The notes under the pieces were generated by a model that saw nothing but the letters and a program-made list of their open reading frames with translations, was not told the origin of the DNA and did not search any database. From Candidatus Scatomonas merdigallinarum (GTDB taxonomy: Bacteria > Bacillota > Clostridia > Lachnospirales > Lachnospiraceae), in contig DVKB01000034.1 of the NCBI GenBank assembly GCA_018716305.1, positions 124,001 through 188,000 of the forward strand: 64,000 bases of DNA, given 5' to 3'. This document shows, in pieces, positions 18,996-39,022 of this stretch (positions within the stretch are counted from its first letter, which is position 1; every line of letters begins with the position of its first letter). Position numbers and translations under genes: made by a program.

Positions 18996-19003
18996 ACCTA
19001 TTC

Positions 19004-19954: not shown

Positions 19955-19982
19955 ACCTCATTTCATCAGGAAAATACCCGGA

Positions 19983-21572
19983 TCATTCTGCCGGAACAAT
20001 TTCCGTAGTCAGCCAATAATAATCCGCTGTATGGATATGGGCATATCCTACACGCTCATTGGAATAAACCATGGAACTGTTATAGTAACCATCTACGATT
20101 ACCAGGGCATCATCTATGATAATCTGCTGCATTTCCTTTACCAGTTCTTTTCTTCTCCCCGGATCCAGTTCATTCTGCAGAGATTCATACAACTGGTCAT
20201 ATTCCGGATTGGAATACCCGCAGTAAGTAGTTTCGGAGTACCAGTTGCCGAGATACTCCAGCGGATCGCCGGTTCCCACAGTGGTCCAGTTATTATTGTT
20301 CAGATCATAATCTCCCGCAGCCAATTTGCTCCACTGATCGTCGGAACTTCCGTATTCAGCTGTGACTCCGATGCCGATTTCCGCCAGGTACTGGGTATGC
20401 GCGTCTGAGAAATCATTTAACAGACGATTTTCGTAGGAAACATAGCGAAGATTAATATTCTGCCCCTCCAGTTCCCGGATACCGTCCCCATCGGTATCTA
20501 TAATTCCCGCATTGTCCAGCAGTTCCCTGGCCCCTTCCGGATCATAGGCATAGGGATCTGTCAGTTCCTCATAGCCGTAATCCAGATTGGAAGGCAGTAC
20601 GGAAATACCGGCTGTATACAGGCCGCCGATGGTTTTGGATGCGCAGATCTGGTCTTTATCAATCGCCATGAGGATCGCCTGGCGGAGGGTATCGTTGGCT
20701 AAAACCCCGTCCAGGTTCATCCAGCTGAATCCGCAGCGCACGCCGGTGGCGATATCCACGGTAAAGTCAGGATTCTCCTGAAAATCCTGAATGTCGGAAA
20801 CATTGGTGATGTTTTCCACCAGATCTACCTGGCCGCTCTGCAGGGCCATGGTCTTTGCGGAGGCATCTCCCATGAAAAGAATATTCACTTTCTCATAGGG
20901 AACTTCTTCATAATAATTGGGATTGGCTGCCATCTCGTAACCGACTCCCACGCCCTCAAACTGGCTTACCATATAGGGGCCGGTTCCGATGACCCCATTC
21001 ATGAAATCCTCTGTATGTTCTATATCAACCACCGCCATGACCGGATAAGCCAGCTGCCCCGGCAGGTCATTGTACGGCTGACTTGTAAGGATCGTCAGTG
21101 TATTTGCCTGGTCATCCGCTGTGATTTCCGCTTCAAACTCCAGATATTTTTCCGCGTTGGCCGAAGACTCTTCGGATACTTCTCTCAGATATTCAAAGCA
21201 TTCCTTTACCTTTGAAGGGGTTACCTGACAGCCGTCCGAAAAATAAATATCGTCTCTCAGGGTAATCACCCATTTGGTATGCTCCTCATTTACTGTATAG
21301 CTTTCAGCCAGCCATGGCTCCGTATTCATTTCATCATCGAACCGGAAAAGAGCCTCCGTAATACCATAGCGCATGGCATTCCAGGCGCCGTTGGGCGTCA
21401 GAGAAAAATTCAGGGAGCCGTCATCGTACATCTGGCATCCGAAATTTAAAACCTTTTCTTCCCCGGCATGTGATTCCGCAGTTTTGGAGTTATCCGAACG
21501 GCTGCATCCGGAGAGCAGGAAAAGCGCGCTAATAGCTGCCATTCCAAAAACAAGATACTTTCTGGGCTTCAT
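19983..21572 (-). CDS. Extracellular solute-binding lipoprotein, SBP family 5 (Opp/Nik type)
   Basis: The 529-residue protein has a lipoprotein signal peptide with lipobox LLSGC (Cys23), so it is anchored outside the membrane. The SBP_bac_5 pattern follows (LRDDIYFSDG, TGPYMV, and a calcium-loop-like DTDGDGIRELEG also found in the paralogue at 29583). Family members bind peptides, nickel chelates or opines, and specificity cannot be read here. I start at the ATG at 21572 with GAGAGGAAG upstream; the longer ORF reads back into the leader terminator. It is the first gene of the cobalamin-riboswitch operon. Confidence 0.92.
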   Translation of the reverse strand: MKPRKYLVFGMAAISALFLLSGCSRSDNSKTAESHAGEEKVLNFGCQMYDDGSLNFSLTPNGAWNAMRYGITEALFRFDDEMNTEPWLAESYTVNEEHTKWVITLRDDIYFSDGCQVTPSKVKECFEYLREVSEESSANAEKYLEFEAEITADDQANTLTILTSQPYNDLPGQLAYPVMAVVDIEHTEDFMNGVIGTGPYMVSQFEGVGVGYEMAANPNYYEEVPYEKVNILFMGDASAKTMALQSGQVDLVENITNVSDIQDFQENPDFTVDIATGVRCGFSWMNLDGVLANDTLRQAILMAIDKDQICASKTIGGLYTAGISVLPSNLDYGYEELTDPYAYDPEGARELLDNAGIIDTDGDGIRELEGQNINLRYVSYENRLLNDFSDAHTQYLAEIGIGVTAEYGSSDDQWSKLAAGDYDLNNNNWTTVGTGDPLEYLGNWYSETTYCGYSNPEYDQLYESLQNELDPGRRKELVKEMQQIIIDDALVIVDGYYNSSMVYSNERVGYAHIHTADYYWLTTEIVPAE

Positions 21573-21607
21573 TTTTTCTTCCTCTCTTTGCTGTTTGTTA
21601 CAAAGCC

Positions 21608-21639
21608 AAAAAAAAGATCTGATGCTCCCGCACCAGATC
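21608..21639 (-). terminator. Leader terminator of the cobalamin riboswitch
   Basis: On the minus strand GATCTGGTGC-GGGA-GCATCAGATC (10-bp stem, one G-U pair) is followed by eight T residues. It lies between the aptamer and the solute-binding protein start, as expected of the switch's expression platform. Confidence 0.85.
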
Positions 21640-21741
21640 GGATCCTCTTTTCCACACAAAAAATGCTCGATTGCCTGCTTTTAAACAAAACAACGAATCG
21701 TATAGAATAAAGATTTCTCGTCCTCCGCAAGAACCTTTGAC

Positions 21742-21903
21742 AGAAAATAAGCAGGTCTCCTGGCTTAAGCATTCTTGTCCTCGGCGCCTTCCCAGGGGAT
21801 TTCCCCAGTGGCATTCTGCCTTGGACCAGCTATTACAGTGACGGGATCGCTCCGGATTTTCACCGGATTCCCTTTTAATCAGAACAGCTCTGAACTTATT
21901 TCT
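21742..21903 (-). promoter_or_regulatory. Cobalamin riboswitch
   Basis: Read on the minus strand, the conserved order is present: AAAAGGGAATCCGGTGAAAATCCGGAGC, CCCGTCACTGTAA, then the B12-box region GCCACTGGG, GGGAAGGCGCCGAGGA and GCCAGGAGACCTGC. The ends pair as a P1 stem (AGAAATAAG with CTTATTTTCT), which fixes the limits. Adenosylcobalamin or a related corrinoid would be expected to shut off the operon below. The gene-free stretch 21573-22015 holds this element, its terminator and its promoter. Confidence 0.95.
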
Positions 21904-21934
21904 CACGGCTTAACTGCCGGCTTTGTACCGGTCT

Positions 21935-22015: not shown

Positions 22016-23181
22016 TTACGCTCTTTTTCTGACCCTCCGCACCAGCAGCGCCAGTGCCAGAACAGCCGCCGCAAAAAGCAGCTGCCACGCGCAGCCCTCC
22101 AGCAGACGCTGCTTCAGCGCCCCGGCAAGCTCCGAATGTGTCCCCAGGATCCCGTTATTTTCTTCATACCAGTAAACAGGCAGAAACCGGATGACGTTCC
22201 GCACGCCGGGACTCAGCAGGGACACCGGGATAAACACGCCGCCCAGAAAACTCATGCCCAGAGCCAGGACATTCGCCAGCCCGTTGACGCCGTTGGCGCT
22301 TCCCGCCAGATGCACTACCAGAAAGGCGACGGACAGCCCCACCAGCACCATGGAGGCCACGTTCAGGGCGTACCAGCCCAGATGCGGCTCCGATGGGAGC
22401 CCGCCCGGATTCATCAGCCACACCATCAGGAAGCTGGCACAGAAGAACGCCGCGCCGATCACCGCAAAGGCCAGCAGCATTTCCAGAAGGCGGCGGGACG
22501 CGCTGACCGCCGAGGCCCGCAGCCTCCTCCGGATCTCCGGGCGCTGATAATCCAGCATGACAAAGCCGATCACATAGCAGGACAGCGCCATGAGGATATA
22601 GGGCAGATACTGAAACGTTCCCGCCACCCTGCTCATCTTTGTATTGCCGGAAAGCAGGGAGACAGCTGTCTCTTCTCCCGAAACCGCTTCCATGTGCTCC
22701 GCCGCCTCTTCCGCTGTGAAACCGGCCTGCAGGTACAGGGCCGCGCTTGAGAGCCACCCCTCCGCCAGCTCCCTGACGTAATAGCTCTGACCGGAGCCTG
22801 GCCGTCCTGTTCCCTCCAGCACGTCCCCGGCGTCCGCGCCGTTTTTCGCCGCCTCCAGAAGCCGCTCCTCAAAGCCTTCCGGAATCACCAGCACATACTG
22901 GATATTGCCGTAATACAGCTCTTCCTGCAGCCGGGACTGCTCGTCAGGGAGCTCCTTCACGTCCTGCGTCCGCTTCAGGTAGCCGGTCAGGGCGGCTGAC
23001 AGCATGCTCCCGTCCCGGTCCACCACCGTCAGCGCCACCGTTTCCGTCTCATAGGCATTCCCCGCCCCGTTTTCCATGGAACGGGTCATCAGCATCCCCA
23101 GCACCAGGAAAATAGCCAGATAGAGCAGGATCACCGCTTTCTGGCGGAGCGCCCCAGAAGATAACCCTTAAAGACTGTCAT
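22016..23181 (-). pseudogene. ABC-2 type permease with a frameshift near its start
   Basis: The ORF track begins at a GTG at 23134, but the real N-terminus lies upstream. The ATG at 23181 has AAGGAGGGGG before it, overlaps the preceding stop by 14 bases and opens MTVFKGYLLG. One base is missing in a run of four C on the plus strand (23152-23155). Restoring five gives MTVFKGYLLGALRQKAVILLYLAIF, a smooth ABC-2 N-terminus. The rest (about 375 residues) is intact: a large extracytoplasmic domain after helix 1 and five C-terminal helices (YILMALSCYVIGFVML, VLALGMSFLGGVFIP). No matching ATPase gene is present. The frameshift could be a sequencing error in a homopolymer. Confidence 0.7.
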
Positions 23182-24934
23182 AGCGCCCCCTCCTTGTCAT
23201 GAGCCAGGAACCCAGCAGAAAGATCAGACTTTCCGCCCCCATCAGAAGCAGGTTCATCCCCAGTCTCCCCATGTCGTCATAAACAGCGATGCAGTAGAAG
23301 GAATCGGCAATCAGAGCAGCCGGATTGATCCGGTTAATCATGGGCGCATGCTTTTCCACCAGATCCTTCATGCCGCTGATCATCAGTCCGGCCAGGAACG
23401 CGCAGAAGATGGATGAGCCGATCAGAACCGCCGTTTTCATATTCTGGCTCCATTTCCCGTTGCCTGCCAACCAACCAGCTTTAGACTTCAACCAGAACTG
23501 AAGCTCGTTATAATTTGTATTGTAGTCCGTCAAGAGTATTCCCGTATTCGGTAAAAGGAAATATTTCTCCGGGCTCATTGAATCCACATATTCTTTTAAC
23601 GCGCAAAAACTCTGTACCAGCTCATCCGTAATTTCCGGCTCTTCCGGCTCTGTTGTCTGCGCGTCCTCCACCGTCACTGTCACGCTGCCCGAGACCGCCG
23701 TATCGGAAACACTTGTCGCACTGATCGTTGCCGTTCCGGCTTTCAGAGCGGTTACATTTCCATCTTCGTCAACAATGGCGATCTCTTCACTGTCCGAGCT
23801 CCACGTTACGGATTGATCCGCATTTTCCGGCGAAACATCCGCAGTAAATTTTGAAGTTTCGCCCACTTCCATGGATTTTGCGCCTGACACCATAACCGAC
23901 TCCGGCACAACTGCGGTTTCTCCAACCGGAGTCAGATAATCCCAGTAAAAACCAAGAAACGCACTCTGAATCGTGCTTCCCATTCCGCCTGCTCCGACTC
24001 TGATATATACAACCGGATCGTCGTCTGGTGGCGTAAACGTCATGGTTTCAATAGCATCTATTATCATAGTTCCGAAACTGAAATCCTGTATATATTGATA
24101 TTCCGCTCCGTCCTGCGGTTCGCTCGGAAGACCGCCTTTGGCGTTCGTGTCCGTCTGCCACTCCTCTTTACTATCGTACCACTGGAACAGATAGCACCCC
24201 GCCACGTTCGCACTCCAATGGAGTGAAACGTAAACCTGCCCGTCTTTTACTTCTACATCGGCGGTATTCATCATCGTTGTTCCATCTATCCCGTCAAACG
24301 TCACGTTTCCCATCGACGTATGGGCAATGATATAATTCCCGTTTTCGTCTGTTTCAAATGCAGCCTCCGGAAGTGAGAACGCGAAATTATTCGGATTCAT
24401 AAACAGCCTGAACGGAACCTGATATGTTCCATCTTGAAGATCATCAGGAAGACTTGCCGTAGGCACGTAATAATATGGATCCGCGTCATCCTCCAGATAA
24501 AACGTATAGTTTATATCTGTTATGTCCGCATTCTCAGCCATCATCTCTATCCCGTTAGAGGAATCCACCTCTGTATAAGTCGCGTTGTATGCGCCTTCTT
24601 GTTCTTCTGTCAATGTTTCTCCAGAAGCCTCTGTATCAGTCTCGTTTCCGTCATTTTCTTCTGCCGAAGAGTTGTTGTCCGATGTTTCCGCTGTTGTTCC
24701 TGCGCTCTCGCCCGCAGTTTCGCTAGCTCCCTCATCTGGGATATTGCTATCTGGTGTTTCCTCTGTTGTCTCCATAGTCTCGTCAGTCCCTTCAGCCGAT
24801 GAACTGCCGTCCTGTGTTTCCGCTATCGTCTCTGTATTTACGTCCGAGGCCAGAACTGACAGCGGTTGAGCTGCCGCCATTGATACGCTAAGAAGCGTGC
24901 ACAGCCCGTATTTCATCAATTTCTTTTTTTTCAT
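23168..24934 (-). CDS. Chimeric protein: secreted Big2/NEAT-like surface protein fused to the tail of an ABC-2 permease
   Basis: Residues 1-29 are a signal peptide. Residues 30-130 are a Thr/Glu/Ser-rich low-complexity spacer with internal repeats (TETIAETQDGSSSAEG, TAETSDNNSSAEEN). Residues about 165-335 look like a NEAT-type beta domain (DGTYQVPFRLFMNPNN, SMGNVTF). Residues 343-424 are a Big2 immunoglobulin-like domain. From about residue 488 the sequence becomes a typical ABC-2 permease C-terminus: GNGKWSQNMKTAVLIG, two helices, HAPMINRINPAALIADSF and the ending RRGRYDSL. Base composition also shifts at about 23,475, AT-rich before and GC-rich after. I read this as an in-frame deletion joining two genes. 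Whether it is expressed is unknown. Confidence 0.75.
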   Translation of the reverse strand: MKKKKLMKYGLCTLLSVSMAAAQPLSVLASDVNTETIAETQDGSSSAEGTDETMETTEETPDSNIPDEGASETAGESAGTTAETSDNNSSAEENDGNETDTEASGETLTEEQEGAYNATYTEVDSSNGIEMMAENADITDINYTFYLEDDADPYYYVPTASLPDDLQDGTYQVPFRLFMNPNNFAFSLPEAAFETDENGNYIIAHTSMGNVTFDGIDGTTMMNTADVEVKDGQVYVSLHWSANVAGCYLFQWYDSKEEWQTDTNAKGGLPSEPQDGAEYQYIQDFSFGTMIIDAIETMTFTPPDDDPVVYIRVGAGGMGSTIQSAFLGFYWDYLTPVGETAVVPESVMVSGAKSMEVGETSKFTADVSPENADQSVTWSSDSEEIAIVDEDGNVTALKAGTATISATSVSDTAVSGSVTVTVEDAQTTEPEEPEITDELVQSFCALKEYVDSMSPEKYFLLPNTGILLTDYNTNYNELQFWLKSKAGWLAGNGKWSQNMKTAVLIGSSIFCAFLAGLMISGMKDLVEKHAPMINRINPAALIADSFYCIAVYDDMGRLGMNLLLMGAESLIFLLGSWLMTRRGRYDSL

Positions 24935-25025: not shown

Positions 25026-25733
25026 TTAGTCGGCTACGTTAAATCCATAGTAAGCAGTCGGATTTTTCATAGCATCCGGAAGGAGACTTATGATCCAGTT
25101 TGGAAGTCCCGTAATGTTTGTTGCAAACTCTATCAGAAGCATATTGTCCATAGAACCCGCGTTATCTGTCGAACCATCTTCGAACTGCATTCCCTGAGCA
25201 CCGTTCTCCAACGTAACCGTCAAAACATTACCATCTGCACTTGCCGCCGCCGCTTTCTCTTCACCATTTAAATAGTAATGGACGGTTGCGCCGCTCAATG
25301 TTCCAGATGCGGTAATTCCCATGAACGTATAACTTATGGACTGCGTTTCAATCATCAGCGTAATAGTACCGTCATTGTTGACTGTAACATTTGAAATGTC
25401 AGAATTCTGCACGATTCCCCCATCTGACATGGAAATGCCCTCATTATCTGCCTTGTAAGAATGATGTGCTGAGATTTTTGCTGTTCCCGACGTATATACG
25501 CCGTCTTTTCCAAGTGTTCCGAGATCAAATTCATCTTCTATCGCAGCTTTTGTATCGTTTGCTGCCCTGACCTCGCTCTGGATTTTCACATCAGATTCTA
25601 TAGCTTCCTGAATTTCCATAACCTGATGCGCTGTCGGCTCAACCGAAACAGTCTCCGCCGCCATTACCGGCACAACGCCCGTGCTTAACATCGTCGCTGC
25701 TGCCAAAACTGCTGCTAATTTCTTGAACTTCAT
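25026..25733 (-). CDS. Secreted protein, NEAT-like, possible haem/iron surface protein
   Basis: The 235-residue protein has a clear signal peptide (cleavage after about residue 25, PVMAA). The mature part has a beta-rich pattern: SMSDGGIVQNSDISNVTV, DGTITLMIETQSI, FMGITASGTLSGATVHYYLNG. This resembles the S/G-x-G/D-N-A strand and YY-x-N-G ends of NEAT-type haem-binding domains in Clostridia, though no definite haem Tyr motif can be assigned. There is no sortase motif or membrane anchor. AAAGGAGG precedes the ATG. Two TTAG-type sites lie upstream, so iron regulation is plausible. The family call is tentative. Confidence 0.55.
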   Translation of the reverse strand: MKFKKLAAVLAAATMLSTGVVPVMAAETVSVEPTAHQVMEIQEAIESDVKIQSEVRAANDTKAAIEDEFDLGTLGKDGVYTSGTAKISAHHSYKADNEGISMSDGGIVQNSDISNVTVNNDGTITLMIETQSISYTFMGITASGTLSGATVHYYLNGEEKAAAASADGNVLTVTLENGAQGMQFEDGSTDNAGSMDNMLLIEFATNITGLPNWIISLLPDAMKNPTAYYGFNVAD

Positions 25734-26108: not shown

Positions 26109-26357
26109 ATGAAGATCCACATATGGCAGGCCCTGCATGACACAGAGGCCCGCAGAGAAATGGAAAAAGAAAGCCTGGAGCAGATGATCCGGATCTACTG
26201 CCACGGAAAACACCGCGCACGGAAGGGCCAGCTCTGCCCTGACTGCCTGAAATTCCGTGATTACGCCTGGAAACGCACGGACAAATGTCCCTTCATGAAG
26301 ACCAAGACCTTCTGCAGCCGCCTGCCTGAGCGCCGGTTCTTCATATTTTCTGGATAA
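26109..26357 (+). CDS. YgbA_NO-family small cysteine protein, probably C-terminally truncated
   Basis: The 82-residue product from the ATG at 26109 has EKESLEQMIRIYCHGKH, LCPDCLKFRDYAWKRTDKCPF and KTFCS, the pattern of the 'nitrous oxide-stimulated promoter' family (YgbA_NO), small Cys-rich proteins linked to nitrosative stress in enterobacteria. In the family as I recall it, a further CxxHCY motif and about 25 residues follow; here the frame continues as RLPERRFFIFSG and stops, so the second cysteine pair is lost. The 3' end overlaps the DtxR-like gene by 17 bases, which suggests a deletion at this junction. The gene sits behind a TTAG-type site. Confidence 0.6.
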   Translation: MKIHIWQALHDTEARREMEKESLEQMIRIYCHGKHRARKGQLCPDCLKFRDYAWKRTDKCPFMKTKTFCSRLPERRFFIFSG

Positions 26358-27165
26358 TCATGGAAAAAATCGCCGTTCGGATATGAATTTTCTTCTCCTT
26401 CAGCGGCGCGCAGGTCCGGAGCCTGCAGTTTCCGATCAGCAGATTTTCCTCCGCATGGTAGGTGTAATCCAGCATTTCCGCCGGAAAGGAATAATAATCC
26501 CCGTCCTTTACTGTCGGCTCGAAGCCCTTCTTCCCTTCATATTCCAATTCCGCCAGCTTTCCATGAAGCATCAGACGTTCCATCAGGTTCCGGCGTTCCA
26601 GGGCCACCGCCTTCAGCCGGATGGTTCCTGTTCCCTTTCTGACGCGCAGCGTGGCGGGATGCTCCATCCCCCGGTCTGCCATCGAAAGATATTTTCCACG
26701 TTCAAAATTCTCCCGGTAGATCACAAAGGCCACCGGATAGTCTCCATCTCCCAGCATATCCGCGAATTCTGAAAAAGTCAGGTTCCGCAGCGGCTTCAGC
26801 TGCTGGAAGAGCCGGTTAAGCCGGGTTCTTCGGAAAAGCTGCTCTTTCATACCTTCCGTGAGGAACATCACCATCTGCATGGCGTTTTCCCGGTTTTCAT
26901 TCTCATCCAGATGCACGGTCTCCTGCAGGTATTCCTCCATAAGCCTGAGCTCTTCCCGGTACCGTCCGGCTATCGCTTTCCCTTCCTCTGTCAGTCTCAG
27001 TGAATCCCCGCAGACAATCTTCTGTGACACCAGATAACTGATATTCCGGCTGGCAGAAGCCTTGGACACCTGGAAAAAACGGGCCAGCTCCGTAACGGTA
27101 ACGGTTTTTTTCTCATCTGTATCCAGATAAAGCAGATACGCCAGACGCTTCGTTGTCATTTCCAT
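26341..27165 (-). CDS. DtxR/MntR-like winged-helix regulator with an unusual C-terminal domain
   Basis: The 274-residue protein starts with a winged HTH (TVTVTELARFFQVSKASASRNISYLVSQKIV, residues about 20-50) and a wing ending LTEEGKAIAG. A helical stretch, REELRLMEEYLQETVHLDENENRENAMQM, recalls the metal-binding dimer helices of DtxR proteins (Glu- and His-bearing). The C-terminal 130 residues (beta-rich, HPATLRVRKGTGTIRLKAVAL) are not a domain I recognise. This architecture is common in Clostridia. It is the best candidate to bind the TTAG-type sites. Its start codon is only 24 bases from a 55-bp palindrome and IS remnant, so its native promoter may be gone. Confidence 0.6.
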   Translation of the reverse strand: MEMTTKRLAYLLYLDTDEKKTVTVTELARFFQVSKASASRNISYLVSQKIVCGDSLRLTEEGKAIAGRYREELRLMEEYLQETVHLDENENRENAMQMVMFLTEGMKEQLFRRTRLNRLFQQLKPLRNLTFSEFADMLGDGDYPVAFVIYRENFERGKYLSMADRGMEHPATLRVRKGTGTIRLKAVALERRNLMERLMLHGKLAELEYEGKKGFEPTVKDGDYYSFPAEMLDYTYHAEENLLIGNCRLRTCAPLKEKKIHIRTAIFSMIIQKI

Positions 27166-28019: not shown

Positions 28020-28778
28020 TCACAGAACCGCCTGGATGAGTTTTATGGTGTACGCTTTCCGGGGATGAAGGATTACCTGCTCCGGCGTTCCCTCTTCCAC
28101 GATCCTGCCTTCCGCCATGACCAGCACCCGGTCACAGAACTGCTGCACCAGAGCCAGGTCATGGCAGATAAACAGGTAGGACAGCCCCCACTCCCGCTTC
28201 AGGGAGGCTAACAATTCCAGAACCTGTTTCTGTACCGTGACATCCAGGGCGCTGGTAGCCTCATCGCAGATCAGCAGCCGGGGCTCCACCGCCAGCGCTC
28301 TGGCGATGGCCGCCCGCTGGCACTGGCCTCCGCTGACCTCATGGGGATAGCGGCCGGCAAAGTCCGCCGGAAGTCCGCACTGCATAAAAAGCTTCTCCAC
28401 CCGCCTTTTTCGCTCTTTGGAAGAAAGGCCGGTATTTTTCAGGCTTTCTCCCACCCCGTCCCCCAGGGTCCGGCGGGGGTCAAAGGATTCCGCCGGAGAC
28501 TGAAAGACCATCTGCAGCTGCCGGTATACCTGGCGCTGCTCCCGGGACTTCAGATGAGTGACCGCTCTGCCCCCAAGATAGATCTCCCCCTCCGAGGGCT
28601 TCAAAAGCCCGGTGATCATTCTGGCCACCGTGCTTTTGCCGGATCCGGATTCCCCCACGATGCCCAGAGTTTCTCCGGGAAGAAGGCAGAAGCTTACATG
28701 GTCCACAGCGGCCAGTTCCTCCTGTCCTTTTTTCTGAAATGTTTTGGTCAGTTTTTTTACTTCCAGCAAAGGTTCCAT
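28020..28778 (-). CDS. Opp/Nik-type ABC importer ATPase, OppF/NikE-like (second system)
   Basis: The 252-residue ATPase has GESGSGKST, SGGQCQRAAIARAL and LICDEATSALDVTVQ. It is shorter than the first system's OppF-like protein because it lacks the cysteine-rich C-terminal extension; this is the NikE length. It directly abuts its partner ATPase gene (28778/28779). It is the last gene of the second importer operon, whose 3' flank is the IS remnant region. Confidence 0.9.
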   Translation of the reverse strand: MEPLLEVKKLTKTFQKKGQEELAAVDHVSFCLLPGETLGIVGESGSGKSTVARMITGLLKPSEGEIYLGGRAVTHLKSREQRQVYRQLQMVFQSPAESFDPRRTLGDGVGESLKNTGLSSKERKRRVEKLFMQCGLPADFAGRYPHEVSGGQCQRAAIARALAVEPRLLICDEATSALDVTVQKQVLELLASLKREWGLSYLFICHDLALVQQFCDRVLVMAEGRIVEEGTPEQVILHPRKAYTIKLIQAVL

Positions 28779-29561
28779 CTAATTTTTCTCCAGCACCGGC
28801 ACAGCGGCCAGCAGCTCCTTTGTATAGTTTTCCCGGGGACGGCCCAGCACCTGCGGGGCCGGTCCGTACTCCACAGCCTCCCCCGCCTTTAAAACAAGGA
28901 CTGTATCCGCCATGGCCCGGACCACTCCCAGATTATGGGTCACCAGCACCATGGCTGTGCCGTACAGTTCCCGCGTCAGCAGCAGTTCCTCCACCGCCTG
29001 TCTCTGCACAGAGACGTCCAGGGCGCTGGTAGGCTCATCCGCCAGCAGGATCTCCGGCTTCAGGAGCATGGCCATGGCGATCCCCACTCTCTGGTTCATG
29101 CCCCCGGAAAGTTCAAAGGGATAGCCGGCCAATATCCGTTCCCCTTCCCGGAAACCCAGCCGGGCAAAAAGCTCCAGGGCTTCTGTATCGCTTTCCTTCC
29201 GGGTGATCTTTCTGTGAGCGGAAAGACTCTCAAAGATCTGGCTGCCGATGGTGCGCACCGGACACAGGGCGGCTCCGGCGTCCTGAAAGATCATGCCGAT
29301 CTGCGCGCCCCGGATCTTCCGCAGTTCCTTTTCCGTAAGATCCGGCAGGTTCCGGTCCCGATACAGGATCTCTCCTTGGGTCACCAGGCCTCCCTGGCCC
29401 AGGATCCCCAGGGCCCCCCGGATCAGGGAGCTTTTTCCGCTGCCGGATTCCCCCACAATTCCCAGGATTTCTCCGGACTTCAGGGTAAAATTGATATCAC
29501 GGACTGCCGGGATCCCGTTATAGGAGATCTCCACCGACCGGTAAACAAGTAATTCTTCCAT
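28779..29561 (-). CDS. Opp/Nik-type ABC importer ATPase, OppD/NikD-like (second system)
   Basis: The 260-residue ATPase has GESGSGKSS, LSGGMNQRVGIAMA and ILLADEPTSALDVSVQ, with an intact His switch (LVTHNLG). It resembles the protein at 17377-18162 in length and in the MRQRVGIAMG/MNQRVGIAMA region, so the two operons are paralogous. It begins 21 bases after the solute-binding protein stop. Confidence 0.9.
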   Translation of the reverse strand: MEELLVYRSVEISYNGIPAVRDINFTLKSGEILGIVGESGSGKSSLIRGALGILGQGGLVTQGEILYRDRNLPDLTEKELRKIRGAQIGMIFQDAGAALCPVRTIGSQIFESLSAHRKITRKESDTEALELFARLGFREGERILAGYPFELSGGMNQRVGIAMAMLLKPEILLADEPTSALDVSVQRQAVEELLLTRELYGTAMVLVTHNLGVVRAMADTVLVLKAGEAVEYGPAPQVLGRPRENYTKELLAAVPVLEKN

Positions 29562-29582: not shown

Positions 29583-31151
29583 TCAGCCGCCGATATCCAG
29601 ATCCGCGGTGATCTCGTAATAATCGCAGGGATGCGCTGTCAGTCCCGTAACCGAAGCGTCTGCGACCATGCTCATCCGCAGATGGGAGGCAAACACAAAG
29701 GCATTGTCCTTCAGAATCACCTGCTGCATTTCCACAGCCAGTTCCTGCCGGCGGGCGCTGTCAAAGGTCCGGGACATCTCCTCCGCCAGGTTCTCCAGCT
29801 CATCGCTGTGATAATGGCCGTCATTGTTGGCGGAGCTGTCCAGGCAGCGGTAGGTAAAGAAATATTCCGGATCTCCCGTGGGCGCTGTCACCATGGCGCT
29901 GACGTAAATGTCCCAGGCAGAAGGGTCTGTGCGGATGCTGTTGTGGTCCGCGGTGCTGTTGATCTCCACCTGAAAACCGATCTCTCCCAGAGTGGACTGG
30001 GCATACTCCGCCAGCAGCGGCAGCTCCTGGCGGCTGGGATAGGTGAGCCAGCGCAGGGTCAGCAAAGTTCCCTCTTTTTCCCGGATTCCATCCCCATCTG
30101 TATCGATCCAGCCCGCTTCCTCCAGTACCTTTTCGGCTTCTTCCGGATCATAGGTTTCCGTGGAAACCGCGTCGCCGCCAAAGATAAAGTTTTCCGGGAA
30201 TACCCCTTCTGCCGGATATCCGTTGCCCCCCAGCAGGGTCTCCACAAAGCCCTCCTTATCGATGCCCAGGGCAATGGCTTTGCGCACCGCGGGATCCCCG
30301 GTAACGGGGCTTTCAAAGTTCATGGTGCCGAAAAATGCCCGGCTGGTGGCACAGCTGGTAAAGGAGTACTGTTCATTTTCAAACAAAGGATAGCTGGCGT
30401 AGGGCATGCCGTAGGCCACATCGATCTCTCCCGACTGCAGAGCCATAGTCAGGGTATCTCCGTCAGTAATGGTGCGGACCGTAACCTTGTCCAGCTTCGG
30501 CTCCCCTCCCCAGTAGTTTTCATTTTTCACCAGCTCCAGTCCGCTGTCTGTCACCAGGGAAACCGCCTGGTAAGGCCCGGTGCCGGAGACAATCCCCTCC
30601 TCTGTGACTCCCGCCTCCATGTCGATGACGCAGCCGTAGGGATCCGCCAGATAATGGATCAGGGCAGGCACCGGCTCAGCGGTGTGTATGGTCAGAGTAT
30701 AACCCTCCGCGGTGATCTCCCGGATTTGCAGGTCCTCCGCCGCCCGGACATGGACAGAGATCAGATCCTCCAGGCATTCTTTCACCGACTGAGCGTCCAT
30801 ATGCCGGCCGCTGGCAAAGTCCACATCCTCCCGGAGCTGAATCACCCAGGTCAGCTCGTCCGTGTTTTCATAGCTTTTCGCCAGCCAGGGCTCTATCTCC
30901 ATGGAATCGGAAAAGCGGAACAGAGTCTCCCCCACTCCGTAGCGGATGCAGGCCCAGCCGCTGTTGTCCCGGTGGGGATTGATGTCGGGTTCTCCGTTTT
31001 CCGCGTTAAAGGTGGTATCGCCCCACACCAGCGACTTTTCTCCGGAGGTCTCCGGAGATGGCTCCTGAGCCAGCGTTCCGCCGCTGCACCCGGACAGCAG
31101 AGAAATCAGCAGTCCGGCGGCCAGGAATGTGGTCCATGTTTTTTTTCTCAT
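29583..31151 (-). CDS. Solute-binding lipoprotein, SBP family 5 (second Opp/Nik-type system)
   Basis: The 522-residue lipoprotein has lipobox LLSGC (Cys22). The family-5 pattern is clear: IRYGVGETLFRF, LREDVDFASGRHMDAQSVKECLE, TGPYQAVSL and DTDGDGIREKEG. The same GxxxLFRF opening and DTDGDGIRE loop occur in the paralogue at 19983, so the two proteins probably bind related ligands. Overlaps of 4 bases with the permease gene upstream show a tight operon. The substrate (peptide, nickel or cobalt chelate, opine) is not determined. Confidence 0.92.
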   Translation of the reverse strand: MRKKTWTTFLAAGLLISLLSGCSGGTLAQEPSPETSGEKSLVWGDTTFNAENGEPDINPHRDNSGWACIRYGVGETLFRFSDSMEIEPWLAKSYENTDELTWVIQLREDVDFASGRHMDAQSVKECLEDLISVHVRAAEDLQIREITAEGYTLTIHTAEPVPALIHYLADPYGCVIDMEAGVTEEGIVSGTGPYQAVSLVTDSGLELVKNENYWGGEPKLDKVTVRTITDGDTLTMALQSGEIDVAYGMPYASYPLFENEQYSFTSCATSRAFFGTMNFESPVTGDPAVRKAIALGIDKEGFVETLLGGNGYPAEGVFPENFIFGGDAVSTETYDPEEAEKVLEEAGWIDTDGDGIREKEGTLLTLRWLTYPSRQELPLLAEYAQSTLGEIGFQVEINSTADHNSIRTDPSAWDIYVSAMVTAPTGDPEYFFTYRCLDSSANNDGHYHSDELENLAEEMSRTFDSARRQELAVEMQQVILKDNAFVFASHLRMSMVADASVTGLTAHPCDYYEITADLDIGG

Positions 31152-32029
31152 TTTGTTCTTCTCCTTTTTCTCTGTCCGTTTCTGGGATCCAGATAATCCC
31201 GCACAGTGTCCCCCAGAAGGTTAAAAAGCACTACAGAAGCAAAAATCCCAAGTCCCGGGGTCAGTACCACCCAGGGATAGGTCTGCAGCATACTCCTGCC
31301 GCTGCTCATCATACTGCCCCACTCCGCTGTGGGGGGCTGGGCTCCCAGCCCCAGAAAAGAAAGGGCCGCGATCTCCATCATCATGGTGCCGATATCCAGC
31401 ATGGCCGTCACCAGCACCGGGCCGGCGATGTTGGGCAGGATGTGGCGGAAAAGGATCCCCAAAGAAGAGGTTCCGGAAAGCTTTGCCGCCTGGATATAGG
31501 TGAGATTTTTCACCGTCAGAGTCTGGCTCCTGGCCAGTCTGGCATATTTGGGCCAGCTCACCGCCGCCAGGGCAATCACCGCGTTTTGGATGCCGCCCTG
31601 GAGCACTGCCGCCACAGCCATGGCGAACACCAGCCCCGGAAAAGCCAGGCAGATGTCCGAGACCCGCATGATCACCGCGTCCAGGGCTCCGCCGAAATAG
31701 CCGCAGAGCAGCCCCAGAAGAGTCCCTCCCACGGCGATGATCCCCACCAGAATCAGGGCAGAAAAAATACTGGTCTGTCCCCCTACGATCACCCGGGAGA
31801 GCATATCCCTCCCGTACCGGTCCGTGCCGAAGGGATGATCCGGGCTTGGGGGCTGCAGGGCAATAGACAGATCCTGCCCGTTGGGGTCATAGGGGCAGAT
31901 CCATTCCGCGAAAACCGCCGCCAGCAGCAGGGCGATAACCAGAGACAGGAACAGGATCAGACGGATCCTGGTGTGATCGGCCCGGATCCTCTGCCGGCGC
32001 GCCCCGATCTTTTCAGTATGAGAATTCAT
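31148..32029 (-). CDS. Opp/Nik-type ABC importer permease, OppC/NikC-like (second system)
   Basis: The 293-residue membrane protein carries HPFGTDRYGRDMLSRVIVGGQTS, the NikC/DppC hallmark, then five to six helices and SFLGLGAQPPTAEWGSMM. The N-terminal region is basic (KIGARRQRIRADH), consistent with a cytoplasmic tail. Both its start and its stop share ATGA overlaps with neighbours, so it is translated with the OppB-like permease and the binding protein. Confidence 0.92.
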   Translation of the reverse strand: MNSHTEKIGARRQRIRADHTRIRLILFLSLVIALLLAAVFAEWICPYDPNGQDLSIALQPPSPDHPFGTDRYGRDMLSRVIVGGQTSIFSALILVGIIAVGGTLLGLLCGYFGGALDAVIMRVSDICLAFPGLVFAMAVAAVLQGGIQNAVIALAAVSWPKYARLARSQTLTVKNLTYIQAAKLSGTSSLGILFRHILPNIAGPVLVTAMLDIGTMMMEIAALSFLGLGAQPPTAEWGSMMSSGRSMLQTYPWVVLTPGLGIFASVVLFNLLGDTVRDYLDPRNGQRKRRRTK

Positions 32030-32970
32030 GCCTTCTCACCTCCCAGCCGCACCCGGGGATCCAGGGCCCGGTAGCAAAGATCCGTAATAAGATTCACCGC
32101 CACATAGATCACGGCCATCCACACTACGTAAGCCTGGATCACAGGATAATCCCGCATATTGATGGCGTCCACCGCCAGCTTTCCCACCCCGTCCCACATA
32201 AAAATGGACTCCACAATGGCAGTCCCTCCCAGGAGACTGCCCAGAGACAGAGCCATGAGAGTGAGAATCGCGGACAGACAGGAACGCAGGACATATTTCC
32301 GCAGGATCACGGAAAAAGGCACCCCTCTGGCCCTTGCTCCCGTCACATAGTCCTTGCCCAGCTCCTCCAGCACCGCCGCCCGGATCTGCCGCATATATTT
32401 AGCGGACATGGCAATGGCCAGGGTCAGGGCCGGCAGGGCCGCGCTCCTGAGGCTCAGACCCTCCGAAATCACCGGAAAAACGGGAATATATATGGCCAGC
32501 AGATACATCAGCACCAGAGCCACAAAAAAGTTGGGAAGGCTGCTGCCGATAAAACTGCACACCCGGATCAGATAGTCCGTAAATCGATTCTGTCTTACCG
32601 CCGCCAGAATTCCCAGAGGCAGGGAGATCACCACCGTCAGCCCCATGGACAGCACCGTCAGAAGCAGGGTTGCCGGCAGCTTGGACACAAAGACAGAAAA
32701 TACATCGCTGCCGGAAATATAGCTGGTGCCCAGATCTCCTGTAAGAAATCCTCCCAGCCAGCGGAAATACTGCGCCAGAAATGGCTGATCCAGCCCCAGC
32801 TCCGCTCTCCGGGCGGCGATCACCTCCGGGGAGAGGGCCACTCCGGAAACCTCCGACTGCTGCAGCACCGCGTCGCTGCCGGCGATCCGCATCAGGGCGA
32901 AAGAAAGAAAGGTAATGCCCAGCAGGATGGGAATCAGCAGAAGCAGCCTGCGGATCACATATTTCTTCAT
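32026..32970 (-). CDS. Opp/Nik-type ABC importer permease, OppB/NikB-like (second system)
   Basis: I take the ATG at 32970 (MKKYVIRRLLLLIPILLG), which overlaps the methyltransferase stop as ATGA; the 366-residue ORF of the track only reads back through that gene. The 314-residue protein has the OppB first helix, the DLGTSYISG loop, ARGVPFSVILRKYVLRSCLSAILTLMALS as coupling region, and the ending LDPRVRLGGEKA. It pairs with the OppC-like protein encoded next. Confidence 0.92.
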   Translation of the reverse strand: MKKYVIRRLLLLIPILLGITFLSFALMRIAGSDAVLQQSEVSGVALSPEVIAARRAELGLDQPFLAQYFRWLGGFLTGDLGTSYISGSDVFSVFVSKLPATLLLTVLSMGLTVVISLPLGILAAVRQNRFTDYLIRVCSFIGSSLPNFFVALVLMYLLAIYIPVFPVISEGLSLRSAALPALTLAIAMSAKYMRQIRAAVLEELGKDYVTGARARGVPFSVILRKYVLRSCLSAILTLMALSLGSLLGGTAIVESIFMWDGVGKLAVDAINMRDYPVIQAYVVWMAVIYVAVNLITDLCYRALDPRVRLGGEKA

Positions 32971-33767
32971 GATATCTCCTTCTGGCTCAGATTCTTTACC
33001 GCCCGGATCAGAAACATGGGGGTAGAGGAATTGTTGATCCTCTCCTCCCGGGTCCAGACCCGTCTCCAGATCTCCGGATCCGCCTCCATCTCCATTCCCA
33101 GTCTCTCCAGGACCTTCCGGTCCCATTCCGGGCGGAGAGCCAGGGAAAGGGGCGCCTGCACGGCAATGGCCTCCATGGCGGGGATATCCGTCCCGTCGGT
33201 CTCGTTGGCCACCCCTTCCGCCAGGATATTCTCCCGGTCCTTCAGATACCCTTCCCGGGCCTCCCGGTCATACAGATACCGGTACCAGTTGGCGTCAAAG
33301 TTCAGCAGAAGCCCGCCGGGCTTCAGGACCCGGCACCATTCCCCGTAGGCTTTCTCCGGGTGGGGCAGGTTCCAGGTAAGGTTCCTGGTAACGATCACGT
33401 CAAAACGGTTCTCCGGGAATTCCAGCTGTTCCGCGTTCATTCGCAGAAAACAGATGCGGTCCCTCCAGATCCCCGCGTTATTCCCGGCCTCCTTCAGCAT
33501 GGATTCCGTATAGTCCACAGCGGTAACCTGATACCCCATTTCCGCCAGGATCACCGAAAAAAAACCGGGGCCGCAGCCTATGTCCAGAACAGAAAGTTCC
33601 CCCGGCTTCCGTTCCGGATACTGCCGGCTGATCTGCTCAAAAAGAACTCCGCCCCACACCTGATGCTGACCGGAGTTCAGTTCACTTTTATTCACTTCAG
33701 AATATCCGGCCGCCCGGTTGGTCCAGTAGGCCTGATTCTCTGTTTCATACTGCCGAAATGTCTGCAT
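32967..33767 (-). CDS. Class I SAM-dependent methyltransferase, first gene of the second importer operon
   Basis: The 266-residue enzyme has motif I as VLDIGCGPGFFS (residues about 60-71), an acidic motif II (VTAVDYTESML) and the motif FDVIVTRNLTWNLPHPEKAY. The C-terminus ends STPMFLIRAVK. The same unusual elements (VTRNLTW.LP..EKAY, N/S-x-TP-x-FLIRA) recur in the C-terminal half of the fusion protein at 35959. AAGGAGG precedes the ATG. A methyltransferase heading an importer operon suggests that it modifies the imported compound or makes a chelator. Its substrate is unknown. Confidence 0.9.
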   Translation of the reverse strand: MQTFRQYETENQAYWTNRAAGYSEVNKSELNSGQHQVWGGVLFEQISRQYPERKPGELSVLDIGCGPGFFSVILAEMGYQVTAVDYTESMLKEAGNNAGIWRDRICFLRMNAEQLEFPENRFDVIVTRNLTWNLPHPEKAYGEWCRVLKPGGLLLNFDANWYRYLYDREAREGYLKDRENILAEGVANETDGTDIPAMEAIAVQAPLSLALRPEWDRKVLERLGMEMEADPEIWRRVWTREERINNSSTPMFLIRAVKNLSQKEIS

Positions 33768-33854: not shown

Positions 33855-35282
33855 TTACTGCCGGGGCTGACTTTGCGAAGGCTTTTCCAGAGCTTTTTTA
33901 AACCGGAAGGCAAAGAGAATGGCCGTAAAGGTTACCGCCAGGGTGTCTGCCGCCGGTTCCGCCAGGTACACGGAGGTGGTCTTCTCCAAAGGCAGGATTC
34001 CCGGAAGCAGGTAGATCATAGGAATCAGCAGGACAAACTTCCGCACAACCGCCACCGCGATGGATTCCACCGCTCTGCCCAGGGCGTTAAAGGTCATCTG
34101 GCAGGCCATCTGGATTCCGAAGAGGAACATGACCCCCATGTAGATCCGCAGGGCAGTCCCGGTATAGGCGATCAGCTCCGGGCTGGTGGTAAACATGGCG
34201 GCAAACACTCCGGGAAACAGCATAACCAGAGCCCATAAGATCCCCGCGTAGGCCATGCTGACTTTCAGCAGGAGCCGGAAAGCCCCCTTGACTCTTCCGT
34301 AGTCCCCGGCCCCGTAGCAGTAGCTGATGATGGGCTGGGCGCCCTGTCCCAGTCCCTGCAGGGGGAGCATGGCGAACTGCATGACGCTGGTGAGAATGGT
34401 CATTGCTCCCACGGCAATGTCTCCTCCATAGTTCTGAAGAGAACTGTTAAAGCAGACGGAGATCACACTCTCGCTGGCCTGCATGATAAAGGTAGCCGCC
34501 CCCAGGGCCACGCAGGGGCCTATCACCTTGGGAACCAGCCGCAGATTCTTCTTTCGGATCCGCAGAAAGGTCCGCTTTCCGCAGAGAAAACTCACCACCC
34601 AGAGGCAGGAGAGGGCCTGGGAAATAATCGTGGCCAGCGCCGCGCCCCGGACGTTCATTCCCAGTCCGAAAATAAAGATGGGATCCAGGATAATGTTGGA
34701 CACTGCCCCGATCAGCACAGAGAGCATGCCGGTCTTCGCAAAGCCCTGGGCAGTGATAAACGCGTTCATTCCCAGGGTCAGCTCCACAAAAATGGTTCCC
34801 ACGGCGTAGATGTTCATGTAGTCCACCCCGTAGCCGATGGTCTTTTCACTGGCCCCGAAGGCCATGAGCAAATCCCGGTTCCAGATCAGCAGTACCGCTG
34901 TCAGGATCACGGAAAGGAGGATCTGCAGGACAAAGCAGTTGCCCAATGTTTTCTCCGCGGAATCCTTATCCTTCCTGCCCATAAAAATAGAAGCCCTGGG
35001 AGATCCCCCGTAGCCTACCAGTGCCGCGAAGGCGGATACGATCAGAATCAGAGGCATGCATACGCCTACCCCTGTCAGGGCGGAGGCTCCGATATCCGGA
35101 ATATGCCCGATATAGATCCGGTCTACAATGTTGTACAGCATATTGATCAGCTGCGCCGCCACCGTGGGCAGAGCCAGCTTAACCAGTAATTTCCCCAGAG
35201 GCTCCCTCCGCAGAAATTCCTTGCTGTTCTCCGGAGTTTTCTGAAGTTCCATGTCTGTCTGTTCCTGTTCTTTCTGTTTCAT
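33855..35282 (-). CDS. MATE-family efflux transporter (second)
   Basis: The 475-residue protein has 12 predicted membrane segments and a MepA-type start (LVKLALPTVAAQLINMLYNIVDRIYIGHI). Its length and the AVGAMTILTSVMQFAMLPLQGLGQGAQPIISY segment are typical of the subgroup. The ATG overlaps the MarR stop as ATGA. It lies just upstream of the methyltransferase-importer operon on the same strand (87-base gap). Its presence beside a second Opp/Nik-type importer mirrors the first system. Confidence 0.93.
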   Translation of the reverse strand: MKQKEQEQTDMELQKTPENSKEFLRREPLGKLLVKLALPTVAAQLINMLYNIVDRIYIGHIPDIGASALTGVGVCMPLILIVSAFAALVGYGGSPRASIFMGRKDKDSAEKTLGNCFVLQILLSVILTAVLLIWNRDLLMAFGASEKTIGYGVDYMNIYAVGTIFVELTLGMNAFITAQGFAKTGMLSVLIGAVSNIILDPIFIFGLGMNVRGAALATIISQALSCLWVVSFLCGKRTFLRIRKKNLRLVPKVIGPCVALGAATFIMQASESVISVCFNSSLQNYGGDIAVGAMTILTSVMQFAMLPLQGLGQGAQPIISYCYGAGDYGRVKGAFRLLLKVSMAYAGILWALVMLFPGVFAAMFTTSPELIAYTGTALRIYMGVMFLFGIQMACQMTFNALGRAVESIAVAVVRKFVLLIPMIYLLPGILPLEKTTSVYLAEPAADTLAVTFTAILFAFRFKKALEKPSQSQPRQ

Positions 35283-35734
35283 TGGGGATCACTTCTCCTT
35301 CCTTCCAGGGCATTCCTGGAATTTTCAAACAGCCGGCGCTGGAGTTCTACCAGAGTTTCCAGATCCCGGCTGGAAAAACCCTGCAGCACCGCGGCCAGAA
35401 ACTCCTCTCTGACCTGGTCCACCGCCTCCATCAGGGGCTTTGCCTGTTCCCGCAGCCGCAGATGGATCTTTCTTCTGTCCTCCCGGTCCGGCAGCCGTTC
35501 CAGCAGGGACTTCCGGATCAGGGACTCCACCGCCTTGGAGACGGCGCCCTTGGAGATCATCCGCAGTTCCGTAATGTCCCCCGCCGTGTCTTTTTCAGGG
35601 TTATTCAGCAGAAAACTCACAATCTCCGCTTCAGCCACCGTCAGATCGTGGTCCGTGCAGACGCGCTTCAGCATTCGGTCGTACAAGCGGAACAGGCCCC
35701 GCAGACCGGTAAATATTTCTGTTGTGGGAGTCAT
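35279..35734 (-). CDS. MarR-family transcriptional regulator
   Basis: The 151-residue protein has the winged HTH of MarR: TVAEAEIVSFLLNNPEKDTAGDITELRMISKGAVSKAVESL, with the wing DREDRRKIHLRL, flanked by dimer helices. AAGGAG lies upstream. It is co-transcribed and translationally coupled with the MATE gene, the usual MarR-exporter arrangement. A perfect 17-bp palindrome between its promoter and its start codon is the likely autoregulatory site. Whether it also controls the importer operon is unknown. Confidence 0.92.
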   Translation of the reverse strand: MTPTTEIFTGLRGLFRLYDRMLKRVCTDHDLTVAEAEIVSFLLNNPEKDTAGDITELRMISKGAVSKAVESLIRKSLLERLPDREDRRKIHLRLREQAKPLMEAVDQVREEFLAAVLQGFSSRDLETLVELQRRLFENSRNALEGRRSDPQ

Positions 35735-35958: not shown

Positions 35959-37698
35959 TTATTTCTTCTGCTGATTTCTGACCTTGGACGCCCGGATCAG
36001 AAACAGGGGCGTGGGATTGTAAAATTCATCCTTCTCCCGGTAGATTTCTCTTCCGATCCCCAGTTCGATCTGTACAGAAGTCATGCCTGCCGCTTCCAGA
36101 GCCTCCAGATCCCAGCCGGGACGGCTGCAGGCGGTAATAGACAGCTGCCGTTTCAGCCGCTCGCACTCCTCCAGCATTTCTCTCCCCAGTCTGTGGTGCG
36201 CGTGATTCTGGGGCAGGCCCCTGGAATCCGTACAGTCCTCCTTGCCGTAATCGGCGTCAAAATTCAGCAGCACACCGTCCTCCTTCAGAACCCGGCTCCA
36301 CTCCCGGTAGGCCTTTTCCGCGTCCGGCAGAGTCCAGGTAAGATTTCTGGTAACCAGAACGTCAAAGGTTCCGTCAGAAAATTCCGGGTTCTCCGCGTCC
36401 ATAACCTGAAACCTGCAGCGGCTCCGCTCTTCCGCCGACAGTTCCTCCGCCGCAAGTTCTTCGGCCCCCCGGATCATGCCGGGAGTGAGATCAATGCCGG
36501 TGACCTCATATCCTTCCCTGGCCAGCAGAATGGAGAAAAACCCCGTGCCGCAGCCCACATCCAGGATTTTCAGTTGCTTTTTCCCCGGCAGATGCTTCCG
36601 CAGGATCTCCAGAAAGCGGTCCGCCAGAGAACTGTGAAGCTCCTGTCTCCTCTGCTCCAGAAAATCCCGGCTGCGTTTGGACCAGTAGCCGGCGATCTGT
36701 TCCTTCCGGTCATCAGAATGATAGTCAATCTTTCCGTAAGCGATCATGGGACCGTTCTCGCAGACCTGCAGACTTCCCGTCTGGTAGAGGATCACACCGT
36801 TTTCCTGGGCCACAGACTCCTCCAGGATATTTCCCTCGTAGTCCCTGGTGACTCCCAGAAGATCCCCCACGCTGAACAGATCTCCCGGGCGTTTTTCAGG
36901 ATACCAGAGGCCGAAGCAGGAAGCCGCCTGATACTGAATATCCGTCACTTCCAGGGGATAGTGGGTTCTGACGATATGGCCCCCGGGGCAGATTCCCAGA
37001 TAATCCAGGATGCTCCGCACATCCTTTTTGGCGGACTGAACCTCCTCGCCGCTCCAGGCTCCCATGCCGCCCCGCTCCAGGAGAACGCTGGGGATCCCGC
37101 GGGAGGCTGCGTAGTTGTAAGAACCTCCGGAGTCCACCTCCGAGCGGACCATATAGGGCACGTCTGCCTGTCTTGCCATTTCCCGGGAGATCCGGGTCAC
37201 CTCCGGATCCGCCTTTCCCGCGTAATAAATATAGGGGGCCAGTTCCTCATAGTCATCTCCGCTGTGGAGATCAATATAATAATCCGCCTCTTTGTGAAGG
37301 TGTTTCACCACCGCCGCTGCCAGGCGCTCCGTGACGGTTCCCATCGGATCCCCGGGGAATTCCCGGTTCAGGTTTTTTCCATCCTCCCGGCTGACGCTGC
37401 CCAGCCGGTTTTCAAAATCCTTCCGGTTCACAGTCTTTACCAGCAGGATCCGGCCGCTGACCTGCTCCGGCAAAAGTTCCTCCGCCAGTTCCAGCACTGC
37501 CTGGATTCCCACGTATTCCCCGGCGTGGACGCCGGCGGTGATCAGCACGGTTTTCCCGGGGGCCTTACCGCAGAGGATCGTGGCCGGAACCGAAAAGCCG
37601 CTCTCTCCCAGCTCCAGTATGCCGCTTATTTTTTCCCCCGGCCGGACCTCCTCCGGACGGATGATCTTTGTCTCGTATTTTTTGTATCCTTTCGCCAT
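35959..37698 (-). CDS. Fusion of M14/AstE-type zinc amidase and class I SAM methyltransferase
   Basis: Taking the ATG at 37698, the 579-residue protein has two parts. Residues 1-325 are a succinylglutamate desuccinylase/aspartoacylase-like domain with zinc ligands HAGE (His58, Glu61) and LHSGD (His145) and a likely catalytic Glu208 (LLERG). It includes a C-terminal beta domain. Residues 335-579 are a methyltransferase with ILDVGCGTGFFS and VTRNLTWTLPDAEKAY, ending PTPLFLIRASK, paralogous to the enzyme at 32967. The ATG at 37719 is an alternative start. AstE-like enzymes cleave N-acyl amino acids or peptides. The pairing suggests that one molecule is deacylated and methylated. The reaction is unknown. 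Confidence 0.88.
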   Translation of the reverse strand: MAKGYKKYETKIIRPEEVRPGEKISGILELGESGFSVPATILCGKAPGKTVLITAGVHAGEYVGIQAVLELAEELLPEQVSGRILLVKTVNRKDFENRLGSVSREDGKNLNREFPGDPMGTVTERLAAAVVKHLHKEADYYIDLHSGDDYEELAPYIYYAGKADPEVTRISREMARQADVPYMVRSEVDSGGSYNYAASRGIPSVLLERGGMGAWSGEEVQSAKKDVRSILDYLGICPGGHIVRTHYPLEVTDIQYQAASCFGLWYPEKRPGDLFSVGDLLGVTRDYEGNILEESVAQENGVILYQTGSLQVCENGPMIAYGKIDYHSDDRKEQIAGYWSKRSRDFLEQRRQELHSSLADRFLEILRKHLPGKKQLKILDVGCGTGFFSILLAREGYEVTGIDLTPGMIRGAEELAAEELSAEERSRCRFQVMDAENPEFSDGTFDVLVTRNLTWTLPDAEKAYREWSRVLKEDGVLLNFDADYGKEDCTDSRGLPQNHAHHRLGREMLEECERLKRQLSITACSRPGWDLEALEAAGMTSVQIELGIGREIYREKDEFYNPTPLFLIRASKVRNQQKK

Positions 37699-37756
37699 AG
37701 CTTCCAGTCCTTTTCTCATGTTATTCTTTTCCGCCGAAACGGAAATCACAGAATCT

Positions 37757-38825: not shown

Positions 38826-39022
38826 TGACACCAGGGTCAAATAGATATGCTTTTCATGCCTGCATGAAAAAGCATATCGACTTGACCCGCAAAACACCGA
38901 AAAGGAGCCATTTTTCGCAAAAAAATGTGCGGATTTGAGGTGTTTTAGGATTGTGAGAGCGCAAAGCGCGGAACAATCCGTGGTGTCAAGAGGTCAAATT
39001 AAAATTTGACCTCTTGACACCA
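38826..39022. repeat. Structured intergenic repeat element, about 197 bp
   Basis: TGACACCA occurs at both ends as a direct repeat (38826-38833 and 39015-39022), enclosing GGTCAAAT...ATTTGACC inverted ends. Inside are several stems: GGGTCAA with TTGACCC around a 15-bp hairpin (38834-38888), AAAACACC with GGTGTTTT (38891-38946), GGATTGT with ACAATCC (38948-38979), and a perfect 20-bp arm palindrome (38981-39022). No ORF is present. It may be a MITE-like or REP-like repeat; a structured RNA is possible. Confidence 0.75.

Follow-up and report, generated by a model that had tools for sequence, protein, structure and literature searches.

The window analysed here is a stretch of 64,000 nucleotides from Candidatus Scatomonas merdigallinarum, a member of the Lachnospiraceae. 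On its minus strand, from 35959 to 37719, runs one unbroken frame of 586 residues that joins a deacylase half to a methyltransferase half. The true start of this gene is probably M8 (base 37698), the second ATG among the start candidates, which is the likelier one because AAAGGA stands nine bases upstream of it. Pfam places AstE_AspA_cat (PF24827) at residues 54-240 (91.8 bits, cut-off 25) and Methyltransf_11 (PF08241) at residues 386-485 (80.1 bits, cut-off 21.2); the reading of the gene as a deacylase-methyltransferase fusion, put forward in a preliminary description of this DNA, is thus borne out by two domains in a single uninterrupted frame. A second, free methyltransferase (MT1) forms a tight operon with an ABC importer in the order MT1-NikB-NikC-NikA-NikD-NikE, the MT1 stop and the nikB start overlapping in ATGA at 32970-32967. 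The features are collected in the table, and MT1, the zinc domain (AstE) and the fused methyltransferase (MT2) are together referred to below as the module.

Table. Features of the module, its importer and the genes between them, in positions of the window
Feature	Position	Strand	Basis or remark
AstE/AspA (DoeB-like) zinc deacylase domain	36715..37719	-	N-terminal; Pfam PF24827, DoeB alignment, Foldseek
H65, zinc ligand	37527-37525	-	Part of HAGE; DoeB alignment
E68, zinc ligand	37518-37516	-	Part of HAGE; DoeB alignment
H152, zinc ligand	37266-37264	-	Part of LHSGD; DoeB alignment
E215, predicted general base	37077-37075	-	Analogy with AstE/AspA family
Class I SAM methyltransferase domain MT2	35959..36714	-	C-terminal; Pfam PF08241, conserved motifs
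MarR-family regulator	35279..35734	-	Pfam MarR_2; 4-base overlap with MATE, translationally coupled
MATE efflux transporter	33855..35282	-	Between MT1 and fusion; Pfam MatE
MT1, free paralogous SAM methyltransferase	32967..33767	-	Pfam; 41% identity to MT2
NikB-type permease	32026..32970	-	NCBIfam Opp2B 339 bits vs cut-off 350; nickel_nikB 300
NikC-type permease	31148..32029	-	NCBIfam Opp2C nickel transporter permease 316.4 bits, above cut-off 300
NikA-type solute-binding lipoprotein	29583..31151	-	Best PDB matches: nickel-binding proteins 3t66, SaNikA 4ofj
NikD-type ATPase	28779..29561	-	CntD/CntF/NikD models 230-237 bits, below their cut-offs
NikE-type ATPase	28020..28778	-	NikE model 245 bits, below cut-off

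Structure prediction, which the preliminary description had proposed as a check, gave an AlphaFold2 model (46 aligned relatives) that is confident in both domains, with a mean pLDDT of 90 and a pTM of 0.77. The top Foldseek match to this model is DoeB (6twm; E 1.5e-26, TM-score by target 0.84), followed by further members of the DoeB fold family and then by ordinary SAM methyltransferases. When the AstE domain was aligned with DoeB (6twl/6twm) and 3cdx, its nearest solved relatives, and with its homologues, the zinc ligands H65, E68 and H152 proved invariant in all 61 AstE domains, while E215, which by analogy is expected to be the general base of the deacylase domain, is kept in 59 of the 61. 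On the methyltransferase side, motif I (LDVGCGTGFF at residues 386-395; DVGCGTGFFS at 387-396) is retained in 109 MT2 sequences together with the signatures YW..R, RNLTWTLP and RPxWD, and MT1 has the same motif framework. The earlier statement that the zinc and SAM motifs are intact therefore extends to the relatives, and an inactive zinc site, which had been named as a point that would count against the fusion's proposed role, is ruled out by the invariance of the ligands. E215 is replaced by Lys in the fused protein of L055 (LLKRGG) and, by inference, in the near-identical L075, both with the zinc ligands retained; from this substitution, the deacylase of these two loci may be inactive.

A search for the domain pair, likewise suggested in the preliminary description, found the full fusion in 13 of 299 genomes of the same family as the source, nearly all from different genera, and a scan of named genomes added fusions from Blautia, Fusicatenibacter saccharivorans, Lactonifactor longoviformis, Robinsoniella and uncultured Lachnospiraceae. 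The nonredundant set holds 39 distinct fused sequences, of which 24 are AstE-MT2 and 15 are triple MT1-AstE-MT2 fusions; four further relatives are MT1-MT2 fusions without AstE. In the AstE tree, the fused sequences form one clade and the difference between fused and separate forms amounts to one change, consistent with a single origin of AstE-MT2 (support 93), and an artefact or frameshift as the source of the fusion is ruled out by 39 distinct sequences in that clade. In the same tree, MT1 has switched between joined and separate about eight times, at least two of these changes being forced by strongly supported branches. MT1 and MT2 share 41% identity over 241 residues and fall into two clean, separate clades, in keeping with the paralogy that had been noted between the fused half and the free enzyme. 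As the three parts have been repeatedly fused in differing combinations, there is good evidence that MT1, AstE and MT2 cooperate, and the earlier suggestion of two consecutive steps on one substrate gains from the age and conservation of the pair, from the triple and MT1-MT2 fusions, and from the proximity of AstE and methyltransferase genes. Homologues with separate and unlinked halves had been named as counting against it; a few AstE homologues of this kind do exist (L043 in G049 and L053 in G263), and the remainder of the separate relatives of the fused clade, 16 of 18 by inspection, have a methyltransferase gene close by. Many loci carry the methyltransferases without AstE, and some distant loci appear to have a single methyltransferase. 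One locus of genome G102 (L066:8758-10444) holds a decayed second copy of MT1 and AstE-MT2 with an internal stop, still near a nik operon; an intact MT1/fusion copy lies elsewhere in that genome. A plasmid or phage origin of the fusion was also considered and rejected, the matches being to stand-alone AstE-like proteins or generic methyltransferases only, with no record at 80% coverage.

The most consistent neighbour of the module is the importer. NikB or NikC lies within 8 kb in 57 of the 77 module loci with full flanks and in 20 of the 23 fusion loci, against a chance of about 2% for a random gene, as derived from 3.8 NikB-like genes per genome; the 20 loci without a linked importer include three fusion loci. 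In L076, L096, L098 and L101 the order is MT1-[AstE-MT2]-NikB-C-A-D-E and the genes stand a few bases apart, and the pairing of a methyltransferase with the importer recurs in loci from other families of the phylum. AstE is likewise found without methyltransferases in operons with Nik-type importers, where the NikA proteins of L206 and L211 score 604 and 632 bits (nickel_nikA cut-off 393), and since these AstE-only loci adjoin a nickel-type NikA, both halves of the fusion are independently tied to nickel import. The NikA of the window itself stays under the equivalog cut-offs (Opp5A_nikA 349 vs 600; nickel_nikA 180 vs 393). Across 65 NikA orthologues the pocket retains R97 and is without the residues corresponding to R137 and H416 of E. 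coli NikA, and the window protein is also without W100 and W398. R137 is presumably a contact of Ni-(L-His)2 in E. coli NikA. H416 is such a contact (PMC11091072). With both residues missing from the shared pocket, the sequence comparison suggests that the nickel ligand of this importer differs from two histidines.

The wider genomic context also points to nickel. Module genes are present in 25 of 27 genomes with a NikB orthologue versus 25 of 272 without (Fisher p 2e-20), and urease is present in 10 of 13 fusion genomes versus 11 of 286 without the fusion (p 7e-11), both p-values overstating independence because the associations come partly from related genera. CO dehydrogenase, counted in the fusion genomes only, occurs in 12 of the 13, and the thirteenth has HypB, such that none of these genomes lacks all three of CO dehydrogenase, urease and HypB; taken by itself, HypB shows no significant association with the fusion over the 299 genomes. 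Among individual loci, a urease operon adjoins MT2 in L132, MT1-MT2 is followed in L034 by HypB and then by [NiFe]-hydrogenase-type genes, HypB adjoins the module in L146 and L147, CbiM does so in L122, and CsoR-family metal-sensing repressors with His-rich tails lie near it in L118, L139 and L090. The first of these (L132:3660-12050) has MT2 and a MATE gene directly beside the urease operon and no Nik genes, which suggests that methyltransferase and exporter can serve urease on their own.

Apart from the importer, the surroundings of the module vary. Neighbour clustering over 131 loci returned ABC ATPases, LysR, MATE, HypB, FmdE, CsoR and the like, with no conserved extra biosynthetic partner. 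MATE genes lie near 15 of these 131 loci and no exporter is constantly present; the MATE protein of the window is a possible exporter. In the same-genus genome of L054 the order is [AstE-MT2]-MT1-NikB-NikC-NikA-NikD-NikE with neither MATE nor MarR in between, which argues that the MarR-MATE pair is an insertion in the window. An FmdE-family gene lies near the module in five loci (L080, L084 and L121 among them), in L084 directly before MT1 and in the same direction, and may represent an additional module component. DUF362 was rejected as a partner for want of a recurrent close link. A histidine operon lies near the fusion gene in the window, and histidine metabolism was rejected as the source of the substrate, the adjacency of hisIE and AstE occurring in one genome (L053) and at no other locus; there (L053:7211-9558) hisIE closes the histidine biosynthesis operon and the start of the stand-alone AstE relative follows 38 bases further on, and the same genome also has a triple fusion. 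Elsewhere in the window, a Clostridiales-1 RNA (RF01699, an sRNA family; 120 bits) lies at 38826-38988 on the plus strand between DUF362 and the histidine operon. A regulator resembling DtxR/MarR, whose matches to Fe_dep_repr_C and to NEAT-like domains are weak, lies at 26341-27165 on the minus strand, between the module-linked importer operon and a second one described below; its surroundings include an Ig-domain protein (23168-24934) and a secreted protein (25026-25733) for which Pfam gives no match.

Given the nickel importer and the nickel-enzyme context, neither of which entered the preliminary description, we infer that the substrate is a nickel ligand, that is, a ligand of the transported metal as opposed to a generic N-acyl amino acid. 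The fusion probably makes or processes a nickel-carrying small molecule, and it is reasonably likely that fusion and MT1 both act on the organic compound with which Ni(II) passes through the neighbouring NikABCDE-type importer. In such a scheme, the precursor of the ligand would be of amino-acid type, and the zinc domain would strip it of an acyl (or aspartyl-like) group, freeing an amine or cutting an amide; MT2 and MT1 would each transfer a SAM-derived group, most likely methyl, to the same molecule, and the fusion would serve to hold the intermediate in place. Deacylation followed by methylation of the freed amine or carboxylate, as first proposed, is a guess as far as the exact chemistry is concerned.

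Whether such a ligand would be made or taken apart is a separate matter. Of the two, we think it more probable that the enzymes mature a nickelophore made by the cell itself than that they break down a chelate taken up from outside, since synthesis of a secreted ligand agrees with the operon layout and since opine metallophore clusters, the opine-zincophore included, sometimes carry extra methyl- or acetyltransferases (PMC7438024). In its fullest form, this would make MT1, AstE and MT2 a dedicated nickelophore pathway for a NikABCDE-type importer, consisting of a deacylase and two SAM-dependent transferases and widespread among gut Lachnospiraceae (Blautia, Fusicatenibacter and Lactonifactor among them), a proposal that we put forward as tentative. 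Its main rival is turnover, wherein a foreign nickel chelate of host, dietary or microbial origin is imported and its ligand is then processed by the enzymes, through stripping and methylation, such that nickel is released and the ligand can neither bind again nor exit. Siderophore hydrolases release iron in an analogous manner, the AstE-only loci pair importer and hydrolase as a minimal unit, units of a single methyltransferase and an importer exist in distant families, and neither a constant exporter nor co-occurrence of a scaffold-building enzyme (ligase, opine dehydrogenase, nicotianamine synthase) with the module was seen. However, an operon with enzymes first and importer second resembles metallophore synthesis loci, several loci adjoin MATE genes, and methylation of a released ligand spends SAM to no obvious gain; we regard turnover as somewhat unlikely. 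It is a more doubtful proposition that MT1 and MT2 are 3-amino-3-carboxypropyl transferases that combine SAM with an amino acid such as histidine into a nicotianamine- or staphylopine-like chelator, while AstE would take off a protecting acyl group. SAM transfer of this kind underlies the making of staphylopine-type chelators (CntL; PMC7438024), and the module offers two enzymes that use SAM but none that would otherwise build a scaffold. A CntL-type nicotianamine synthase (PF03059) was absent from all 21 module genomes, with the control genome positive, so this step would be vacant. Yet the sequence and fold of the two proteins match ordinary methyltransferases, with no similarity to NAS or CntL seen. 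An opine metallophore route is likewise not evident in view of the missing NAS-family gene; staphylopine dehydrogenase CntM (PF10100) was also found in 0 of 21 module genomes, although no control genome matched this model either.

The metal itself might also be another than nickel. The window contains, some 6 kb away from the importer of the module, a second, paralogous NikA-B-C-D-E-like operon (16380-21914, minus strand). A strong cobalamin riboswitch (RF00174, 21733-21914) stands in front of it, and a MATE gene (15019-16383) and a LysR gene (14086-14988) come after it; this operon likely serves B12-controlled cobalt uptake. In L065 (7870-13878) the AstE-MT2 fusion has the cobalt chelatase CbiK directly upstream and the large subunit of a diol dehydratase on its downstream side, and CbiM (L122) and BtuC-like permeases occur near some loci. 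Given the riboswitch on the paralogous importer and the CbiK gene, cobalt may be served too. That the module serves cobalt or corrinoid uptake instead of nickel is unlikely, however, as riboswitch control of the module's own operon was rejected after neither this operon in the window nor 23 related loci gave a match, and as the link to urease and CO dehydrogenase is strong and HypB genes are neighbours. Least probable is that the fusion is a generic bifunctional amino-acid-modifying enzyme whose importer neighbourhood is incidental: some members are indeed unlinked to the importer, but the linkage stands more than 30-fold above chance across many families of the phylum, and these linkage statistics strongly disfavour it.

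The nickel-ligand reading can be set against several known systems. DoeB/EutE, the N-alpha-acetyl-2,4-diaminobutyrate deacetylase (6twl, 6twm; TIGR02994), shares the fold of the fusion, its zinc site HxxE...H and the NLNR-FPG motif, and is its best structural match at 26-28% identity, whereas the fusion falls below the DoeB equivalog TIGR02994 (100.3 bits vs cut-off 402.7) and, unlike DoeB, is joined to a methyltransferase and linked to nickel importers. Aspartoacylase, succinylglutamate desuccinylase and the M14-like cyanophycin dipeptide hydrolase CphZ belong to the same wider fold family, and the aspartoacylase/CphZ group removes acyl or beta-aspartyl groups from amino acids; the fusion is distant from AstE and CphZ (12-18%), and its context differs. 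In the urease system of Blautia (PMC12001548), which belongs to the same organism group, the enzyme needs nickel; according to the 2025 study of this system, whose text never uses the word methyltransferase, the nickel transport genes are located at other sites of the genome (PMC12001548), and the module is a candidate for the nickel-transport part. In this organism group both urease and CO dehydrogenase depend on nickel, and the module may bear on its supply. E. coli NikABCDE is a homologous five-gene importer, from which the window operon differs by carrying enzymes; L-histidine from the environment is believed to fill the ligand's role in E. coli, and as of 2024 a nickelophore dedicated to NikABCDE was stated as not known (PMC11091072), such that the module is a testable nickelophore candidate. 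The portion of a 2009 survey of nickel and cobalt use considered here describes no link between module and importer (PMC2667541), and the open literature (subscription journals and preprints lying outside the scope) yielded no description either of the two domains occurring together or of their connection with nickel import. There is a real chance that the module is the first dedicated nickelophore pathway for a NikABCDE-type importer, and named genes in cultured gut bacteria now allow a NikABCDE nickelophore to be tested for. The closest parallel in kind is offered by the staphylopine and pseudopaline cnt systems, in which an ABC metal-chelate importer of the same family is encoded with small-molecule enzymes; unlike cnt, the module has a deacylase and methyltransferases as its enzymes and no constant exporter. 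We rate metal-chelate uptake systems with ligand-modifying enzymes as a known kind, and the deacylase-methyltransferase module as a new form of it.
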